Shown: positions 4,179 to 5,377 of the stretch, piece after piece
Layout of the letters: each line of letters starts with the position of its first letter
How positions within the stretch are numbered: position 1 is the stretch's first letter
Source: Phycisphaerales bacterium
GTDB taxonomy: Bacteria > Planctomycetota > Phycisphaerae > Phycisphaerales > UBA1924
Direction: 5' to 3'
Length of the DNA stretch: 5,377 bases
Assembly (NCBI GenBank): GCA_019747615.1
Contig: JAIEQQ010000257.1
Coordinates: 1-5,377, forward strand
The notes under the pieces: generated by a model
What the model was told of the DNA's origin: nothing
The model's input: the letters and a program-made list of their open reading frames with translations, nothing else
Database searches by the model: none
Program-made: the position numbers and the translations under genes

Positions 4179-5377
4179 ATGCGGCAACATCACACACACG
4201 CCCGCGTCGCCACCCGCCTGATACCGATCGCTGGTGAATCGCATGCCTTTGGGTACCCCCTCTCTCCGAGAGGGGTCCGGCGCTCACGGTCTTGCCACAC
4301 CGGCGCTTCGCCGGCGATCCGTCTGATCGCCTTGATCGCCCTCGCCGGATTGCTTGCACCCGTATCCCGCGCCGCATTCGCTCACGCCAACCAGCCCGTC
4401 ATCATCGAACCGGGCGCGCCCGCCCCTCCCGAAGCCACCGCGCCCGCGGCCGCTGGCGACCTTGCTCGCGTCTCGCCCGTCTTGCGGCTTGCGCTCGAAT
4501 CCGAGTTCCTCACCGATATCGAGCGGGCTCGGCTGCGCGTGCGTCATGGCCTGGCGACCGAAGCCGACATCCAGCTCCCGGCCTTGCGCGCCAAGCTCGC
4601 GCTCCAACGCGGGTGCTGGGATGACGATGCGCTCATCGGCGCCCGCTCGCCCGCCGCCGATCCTCTCGATCGCGCCGAGGCCGCGATCAATCGCGGCGAG
4701 ATCGACGACGCGCTGGCGATCCTCAGCGGTAATTTCGGCGAGCCGGGCACCGAGAGCTCGCTTCGGGCGCTGCGATTGCTCAGCGAGGCCCGAGAGATGC
4801 TGGGGCTGAACGAGCTGGCGGTGATGAGTGCGATGCAATGCCTGCGCGAGCTCAGCGCGGCCAAGCCGCGCACCGCAATGGGAATCGTCGAAGCGGCGCG
4901 GGCGGGCGCCGTGATCCTGCGGCGTGGTCAGCGCGCCGGCGCCGATCAGGCCGATGCGGTGCAGAACGATCTGAACACGTTGATGACCCTCCTGGCCGAG
5001 GCGCGCCGGCTTGATCCACTCTCGTGGGAGGCCCGCGTCGTCGAAGCTGCGCTGCTAGTCGATCGCGGCAACTTCGAACAGGCCGGAGCGGCGCTTCAGG
5101 AAGCCGCGGCGCTGAACCCCAATGCCAGCGCGATGTCGTTCCTGGGCGGACAGATGGCGGTGATGAGCTTCGATACCGCCGGCGTCGAGCGCTTCGCCCG
5201 CGCGCTGGATGCGATGGCCGTCATGCCCGGTGAAACGGTCGAAGCGAAGGACGGCCAGGAACCGCATGAGGCCCGCATGGGCCGCTCGGTGTTCGCAACC
5301 GTGCTGCGGGTGCGCATCGCCCTGCGCGTGGATGACATCGCGCGGGCTCGCGAGCTCATCGACCGCGCGCTGGGCAC
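4179..5377 (+). CDS. Exported TPR-repeat protein, incomplete at right edge
   Basis: The frame is open from just after the LolA-like stop to the window end (399 full codons from ATG 4179). A hydrophobic signal segment LIALIALAGLLAPV (49-62) is followed by SRAAFA, a plausible signal peptidase I site. Downstream is mostly helical and Ala/Leu-rich. TPR-like pairs are visible at about 165-182 (RAEAAINRGEIDDALAIL) and 279-316 (DPLSWEARVVEAALLVDRGN, then FEQAGAALQEAAALNP). A further helical pair begins near the end (VRIALRVDDIARARELIDRA). TPRs are protein-interaction scaffolds; any catalytic domain would lie beyond the edge. The start is uncertain: ATG 4158 (seven codons earlier) is also in frame and neither has a clear Shine-Dalgarno. 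The 48 residues before the hydrophobic segment are unusually many and include a 35-codon palindromic insertion. It is likely cotranscribed with the LolA-like gene. Confidence 0.75.
   Translation, partial: MRQHHTHARVATRLIPIAGESHAFGYPLSPRGVRRSRSCHTGASPAIRLIALIALAGLLAPVSRAAFAHANQPVIIEPGAPAPPEATAPAAAGDLARVSPVLRLALESEFLTDIERARLRVRHGLATEADIQLPALRAKLALQRGCWDDDALIGARSPAADPLDRAEAAINRGEIDDALAILSGNFGEPGTESSLRALRLLSEAREMLGLNELAVMSAMQCLRELSAAKPRTAMGIVEAARAGAVILRRGQRAGADQADAVQNDLNTLMTLLAEARRLDPLSWEARVVEAALLVDRGNFEQAGAALQEAAALNPNASAMSFLGGQMAVMSFDTAGVERFARALDAMAVMPGETVEAKDGQEPHEARMGRSVFATVLRVRIALRVDDIARARELIDRALG
4218..4327. mobile_element. Palindromic MITE-like element inserted in frame in the TPR gene, with flanking 5-bp duplication
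   Basis: CTGAT occurs at 4218-4222 and 4323-4327, like a target-site duplication. The 100 bp between (4223-4322) start with ACCGATCGCTGGTGAATCGC and end with the reverse complement of ACGGATCGCCGGCGAAGCGC. The two arms are identical at 16 of 20 positions, and 18 of 20 can pair if G-U is allowed. Inside lie a perfect 8-bp hairpin (4257-4275) and a 6-bp hairpin overlapping the 3' arm (4300-4314). Insert plus one duplication is 105 nt, exactly 35 codons, with no stop. Removing it joins MRQHHTHARVATR to LIALIALAGLLAPV, a standard signal peptide. It encodes no transposase, so it would be non-autonomous. The alternative is an ordinary long N-terminal region with chance palindromes. Confidence 0.65.
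4257..4275 (+). repeat. Perfect 8-bp hairpin at the core of the palindromic element
   Basis: CCCCTCTC (4257-4264) pairs fully with GAGAGGGG (4268-4275) around a TCC loop. It lies near the centre of the 100-bp element, so with the outer arms it would make a long branched or cruciform structure. No T-tract follows, so it is unlikely to be a terminator, and it lies inside the reading frame of the TPR gene. Confidence 0.8.

Follow-up and report, generated by a model that had tools for sequence, protein, structure and literature searches.

Rickettsia palindromic elements are in-frame palindromic insertions. They are cited as such in the available part of PMC3733652, which also reports REPs inside open reading frames of Opitutus terrae and others, with the frame intact and with many inserts of 20–30 residues and some longer ones, as well as intragenic REPs in tRNA synthetases. 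Intragenic in-frame REPs are already in print (PMC3733652; PMC6006769; both in extracts). The accessible sections of PMC8266576 describe REP_Sm of Stenotrophomonas (group 3) as a 16-nt perfect palindrome split by 3 nt with GTAG directly before it, and RAYTs as domesticated, without evidence of own mobility. A few unexpectedly long TnpA_Y1 proteins, from fusions or annotation errors, were discarded according to excerpts of PMC6006769. The REPIN model is set out in PMC3116915 (extracts).

The window (the whole 5,377-nucleotide stretch of DNA analysed, a Phycisphaerales contig) contained genes with RuvA-type, ManC-type and RuvX-type Pfam matches. Its last two genes showed signal-peptide-like starts and were without any match in the Pfam scan of the window; the name "TPR" for the exported protein came from the original prediction only. 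The program listing open reading frames placed the start of this frame at ATG 4158, whereas the start common to the window and its closest record was ATG 4179. This closest record was locus L001 in a Phycisphaerales MAG (genome G001), with a 99% identical ManC protein and long aligned DNA pieces of 84–92% identity. A protein search gave no homologue of the exported protein at E ≤ 0.001 among 7997 scored candidates; orthologues were located instead beside ManC with tblastn.

A CTGAT direct repeat, terminal arms matching in 16 of 20 positions and a perfect 8-bp hairpin had been claimed at 4218–4327, and all were present in the sequence (Table 1). The frame from ATG 4179 was open throughout, so the insert indeed had no stop codon, and the added stretch was Arg-rich and Ser-rich as stated. 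When the 110 nt were shuffled 2000 times with dinucleotides preserved, no shuffle reached arms of 16/20, and five had an 8-bp hairpin whose loop was 3 nt long. Among the 929 pairs of 5-nt direct repeats lying 65–139 nt apart in the window, only the CTGAT pair had arms of at least 15/20. The RNA fold had z = −3.4 on the + strand (0/200 shuffles as good) and z = −2.7 on the − strand (2/200). The 27-nt core was free of stop codons in all six frames, whereas the 110-nt stretch was closed in three of six. Rfam gave no match within the window at gathering thresholds, the 26-nt core had no matches in viral contigs and the phage search none, and the plasmid search returned four weak records, none spanning 80% of the query.

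Table 1. Features of the insert and of the gene that carries it (window coordinates).
Feature	Position	Strand	Remarks
Exported-protein gene	4179..5377	+	Runs off the window; start ATG 4179 common to L001; no Pfam match
Direct repeat CTGAT, left copy	4218..4222	+	L001 has CTGCT at its single site
Left terminal arm	4223..4242	+	16/20 complementary to right arm; largely common to copy L101 only
5' extension TGCCTTT ahead of tag	4244..4250	+	TTT and GC in consensus of 14 G001 copies
Tag GGGTAC	4251..4256	+	GTAC where canonical REPs have GTAG
REP core hairpin, 8-bp stem CCCCTCTC/GAGAGGGG, loop TCC	4257..4275	+	Stem halves 4257–4264/4268–4275, perfect
Second small hairpin CCGGCG-CTT-CGCCGG, right half, no GTAC tag	4300..4314	+	By eye
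Right terminal arm	4303..4322	+	16/20 complementary to left arm
Direct repeat CTGAT, right copy	4323..4327	+	Read in sequence

The orthologue in L001 read MRQQHTHAGAAGRLLALIAIAGLLTPLGAQALA where the window had MRQHHTHARVATRL, 35 further residues and IALIALAGLLAPVSRAAFA (by eye); the joined stretch of L001 was MRQQHTHAGAAGRLLALIAIAGLL, and the additional residues of the window followed MRQHHTHARVATRL. Residues 14–48 were thus absent from L001, the sole orthologue alignable at the N-terminus, and against this orthologue the first refuting condition set with the original prediction did not hold. The 105-nt net gain is genuine, because L001 reads through without the 35 residues, and the exact end points of the insert are approximate, because the DNA round the junction differs between the window and L001. 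The other tblastn loci were too diverged to align at the N-terminus, several having a short signal-peptide-like start by eye and some an unreadable upstream frame. As a single outgroup, L001 does not separate a gain in the window from a loss in L001.

Further copies of the element, sought in relatives with blastn and exact 24-mer searches, were found. At E ≤ 0.001, five of 61 genomes matched the 110 nt in blastn. Among 400 relatives, the exact 24-mer occurred 11 times in G001, nine times in G214, once each in G024 and G225 and in none of the other 396; its reversed control gave 0 in every row of the 400. The repeated unit of about 30 nt was TTTGGGTAC followed by the hairpin CCCCTCTC-TCC-GAGAGGGG, with unrelated flanks beyond. 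The lined-up copies (14 in G001, including near-exact ones, and nine in G214) agreed over about 30 nt and then diverged, the common unit of the G001 copies being TTTGGGTACCCCCTCTCTCCGAGAGGGG. Blastn matches of the G001 hairpin copies ended at base 74 of the 110-nt query or earlier, the right arm lying at 86–105. In one G001 copy, L101 (query 9–66), the match took in the greater part of the left arm, in a few others only its last bases; neither arm was shared by the nine G214 copies (by eye). The original prediction had defined the family as a 100-bp unit with 20-bp terminal repeats and a 5-bp duplication, which was not supported, no copy seen reaching the right arm. Because the copies share only the core, the long arms, and probably also the 5-bp repeat, a candidate target duplication observed at the window copy, are traits of the window insertion and not of the family. 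The relatives showed the REP trait of a short dispersed palindrome in many copies, with modest copy numbers; the MITE trait of copies sharing both terminal inverted repeats was not found. The G001 and G214 assemblies were both fragmented. Hairpins of a different family (CGACCTGTCCTCAGGTCGGTGC, CGACGACTTCAGTCGTCGGTGCC) lay close beside GTAC-type hairpins at L105, L109 and L118.

The same tag and loop carried other stems in other genomes (16 hairpin rows, drawn from the window together with 11 genomes). Six of the eight stem pairs in these rows had changes on both sides and none had one-sided changes; 4 of 128 cells were unpaired (96.9% paired, against 30.5–53.1% when slid), a percentage biased by taking the rows from hairpin screens, which does not bias the stem diversity. 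The constant tag before the window-type stem was GTAC, with GTAG, GTGG, GGAG, GGGG and others beside related embedded RAYTs. At L202, L212 and L213 the inverted GTAC hairpins round the RAYT had identical or almost identical stems, and at L127, L188 and L128 differing ones (one mismatch upstream at L128). The REP trait of inverted copies flanking a RAYT was therefore present for the hairpin class in relatives; no RAYT flanked by the exact stem of the window was found among the relatives examined. As in group 3 REP/RAYT systems, the window element had its tag directly before an 8-bp stem with a 3-nt loop, and dispersed copies were single, tandem or in inverted pairs, with inverted ones round RAYT genes in relatives. 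It differed in the tag (GTAC, against GTAG in REP_Sm), and the RAYTs with a GTAC tag here sat in frame inside LeuRS or glycine C-acetyltransferase. Judged by these sequence features, the window element is probably a REP of the GTAC class, an assignment that replaces the earlier one as an unknown element with terminal inverted repeats.

The parallel to Rickettsia palindromic elements drawn in the original prediction stood insofar as an in-frame palindrome was readable in place and its 35 residues were within the roughly 30–50 given there. It did not stand as the closest known kind, which was REP/RAYT: the phylum is different, the hairpin class of the window is shared with RAYT flanks, and the likeness is one of description. 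Like the intragenic REPs of Opitutus terrae, the window element was a REP in an open reading frame without a frame break, but it differed in its phylum (Planctomycetota), its GTAC tag, its place in the n-region of a signal peptide and its net gain of 105 nt.

The most surprising result was that RAYTs were lodged in frame in housekeeping enzymes. PF01797 matches in six relatives included L127, a RAYT lying between two inverted GTAC hairpins, a second such RAYT at L128, with its upstream mismatch, and some very long open frames, which were unexpected. HMM scans explained these frames. At L127 a RAYT (81 bits, cut-off 80) lay between the parts of LeuRS (778 bits), and L129 was LeuRS with a RAYT of 83.6 bits. 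L128 combined a RAYT of 93.1 bits with glycine C-acetyltransferase (414 bits, against a cut-off of 460 for the host model), and L126 combined HscA (572 bits, cut-off 620) with a RAYT that scored 75.9 and 81.4 bits in two scans; at L133, ValRS contained a RAYT truncated where the contig ends. In 200 relatives of G001, NF047646 had a match at E ≤ 1e-8 in at least 120 and above its cut-off in at least 96. Among the matches listed, 40 rows with new frames of at least 368 aa were taken (L183–L222), one (G152, 368 aa) being omitted. Their hosts were ValRS (17), RdgB (11) and LeuRS (7), with no host assigned in five (L217–L221). An NCBIfam scan of 10 of the 11 RdgB cases gave RdgB/HAM1 together with an above-cut-off RAYT in all ten.

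The resulting 42 embedded cases (L126–L129, L133, L274, L276 and 35 of L183–L222, not L217–L221) were picked for long frames and give no share among all RAYTs. They occupied six in-frame sites in five kinds of host: LeuRS (two sites), ValRS, RdgB/HAM1, HscA and glycine C-acetyltransferase; the one place in ValRS, one in RdgB and two in LeuRS were read by eye. For 38 of the 42, a further member of the host family matched both flanks without a change of frame; of the other four, L126 and L128 were the sole members of their host (shown by HMM), and L133 and L222 ended at contig ends. Uninserted LeuRS site A had 28–34 residues from WIGRS to TTRPDT (G001, G002, G009 and G024; readable in four of eight genomes). 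A strict inverted hairpin pair surrounded 26 of the 42 embedded RAYTs, the other 16 failing the strict screen. The HUH motif was regular in 40, with none found in L186 and an odd DHEH in L208. Ten RdgB fusions, 50–56% identical to the first, were invariant at the HxH and Tyr of their RAYT part and at many positions of RdgB; selection therefore seems to maintain both halves. One RdgB-RAYT fusion, used as query in a protein search, matched 972 proteins at E ≤ 1e-40, including plain RdgB. Both Pfam domains were present in 61 of the 120 matches listed of these 972; they came from several sources, and some were named transposase, others RdgB. As such fusions recur in proteins from several sources, an assembly artefact is unlikely. 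A literature search, among the matches listed and covering few subscription papers and no bioRxiv, returned no paper on a RAYT gene inside a host gene, and the extracts of PMC3733652 and PMC6006769 describe none. These cases suggest that long RAYT fusion proteins are real genes and not annotation errors. Together with the in-frame hairpins, the embedded RAYTs make the spread of REPs, the movement of RAYTs and the survival of mobile DNA in needed genes testable.

A branch with SH-aLRT 95 set the 42 embedded RAYTs apart from the rest in a quick tree of 80 rows, with L131 just outside. L278, L279 and L280 were standalone RAYTs with their own stop codons and near kin of the embedded group; they were flanked by inverted hairpins (tags GGGG, TGTG and GTGG) and may serve as models for an ancestor of the embedded RAYTs. 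When these three, of similar model coverage, were added, the free tree needed two changes; a tree holding the 42 embedded RAYTs together was more likely with them included and was not rejected (p-AU 0.85). The 42 embedded RAYTs fall in one RAYT group, for which a single origin was not rejected. LeuRS RAYTs (tags mostly GTAC; GTAG at site B) grouped with the glycine C-acetyltransferase one, and the other half of the tree held the ValRS, RdgB and HscA RAYTs (tags GTGG, GGGG, GGAG and others), except for two ValRS rows within the LeuRS half; inner supports were moderate, with 30 of 75 branches open. TAG occurred in 4/52 tags of embedded RAYTs, against 6/20 in standalone ones, but avoidance of TAG by the embedded kind is not claimed, as a hairpin pair was obtained from only 10 of 41 standalone rows and the nearest standalone kin, L278–L280, were also without TAG.

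The GTAC tag and TCC loop were common to the window hairpin and the flanks of LeuRS-type RAYTs, and L202 had the same TCCG after its stem as the window. In G214, the only RAYT found was inside LeuRS, flanked by inverted GGTAC hairpins with a different stem. Seven of the nine window-type copies in this genome had a similar 3' tail by eye (three exactly CGAACTG), and an inverted pair (L270) joined a window-type hairpin with a RAYT-flank hairpin. G001 had 11 window-type copies and one RAYT, located in HscA and flanked by GTGG hairpins; no GTAC-type RAYT was found in this nearest relative. Its LeuRS was interrupted just before site B by a contig break, at which about a dozen residues were lost. 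A RAYT hidden in this break (contigs C45/C48) was considered and was not supported, sites A and B reading uninserted apart from the few residues missing at the break. Because G001 has no GTAC-type RAYT and its LeuRS is uninserted at both sites, the step from the REP to a RAYT is one that we infer.

Open frames at GTAC copies were scanned (n = 20), with a Pfam match in seven and none in 13. At L111, a window-type G001 copy lay in frame in LipB, and the match, 176 model positions over 211 residues, spanned the copy. GTAC-type copies, putative in-frame insertions, also lay in an open frame of RlmN, between its two Pfam domains (L138), and in an open frame of ThiC, before the radical SAM domain (L114). 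The GTAC copy at L137 lay between two domains, and those at L117 and L264 were next to domain ends, the L264 domain being below its cut-off. In G214, a window-type copy (L258) was found in a DnaE-type gene with its N-terminal and later parts in different frames, an apparent disruption and not an in-frame insertion, and as such a counter-example to the in-frame habit. Several G001 copies were directly after a stop codon (by eye).

We consider it probable that the window holds a REP insertion with flanking DNA, most likely moved in trans by a RAYT, which added 35 residues. Once the L001 lineage had split off, a REP (GTAC tag, 8-bp stem, TCC loop) and flanking DNA would have entered the start of the exported-protein gene, as a gain in the window rather than a loss in L001. 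The extra residues would be translated and would separate the n-region of the signal peptide from its hydrophobic core. The most likely mobiliser is a RAYT (HUH/Y1 transposase) that works on the hairpin in trans and belongs to the lineage found in relatives with GTAC-hairpin flanks, in frame inside LeuRS; selection may have favoured the in-frame copies. The second hairpin of the window, which is not a GTAC REP, counts against the REP reading. HUH/Y1 transposition is, to our knowledge, not known to make target duplications, yet CTGAT is repeated in the window. A wider proposal, which we advance tentatively and rate a little under an even chance, is that a Phycisphaerales RAYT lineage lives as a stop-less in-frame domain of housekeeping enzymes, co-expressed with its host enzyme and seeding in-frame REPs. 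The window insert would be the trans-mobilised offspring of a LeuRS-housed one, and essential genes would act as a refuge that an insert can leave without killing the cell only by excising precisely.

The arms and direct repeat, beyond chance in the window, and the presence of most of the left arm in L101 would also fit a classical 100-bp MITE with 20-bp terminal inverted repeats, which a DDE transposase had moved with a 5-bp target duplication, the hairpin being incidental. This is unlikely, given that the right arm was in no other copy seen, that the shared unit was the core and that GTAC hairpins flank RAYTs in relatives. Slightly less credible again is a downstream start of translation, for example at the in-frame TTG in LIALIALAG, which would put the element in the 5' untranslated region with a hairpin that only regulates expression. 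Di Nocera et al. argue so for many N-terminal REPs (PMC3733652, available part), and a TTG codon follows the element in frame (by eye), but ATG 4179 and the following residues are common to L001, a TTG start would leave no n-region, and the frame is kept. The open frame and the Arg/Ser-rich stretch might instead reflect an adapted signal-peptide extension whose 35 residues serve, for example, the timing or route of export. With L001 lacking them and the hairpin being a dispersed repeat, we regard this as very improbable, and a REP insertion with flanking DNA as the preferred explanation.

Elsewhere in the window, an inverted, partly repeated motif (CGGGAATCGGCAATCGG ... CGATTCCCGATTGCCGAT) was observed at 2380–2500, between manC and ruvX. 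A 30-nt piece of it matched L001 at 14941–14970, and it is perhaps a second dispersed repeat family.
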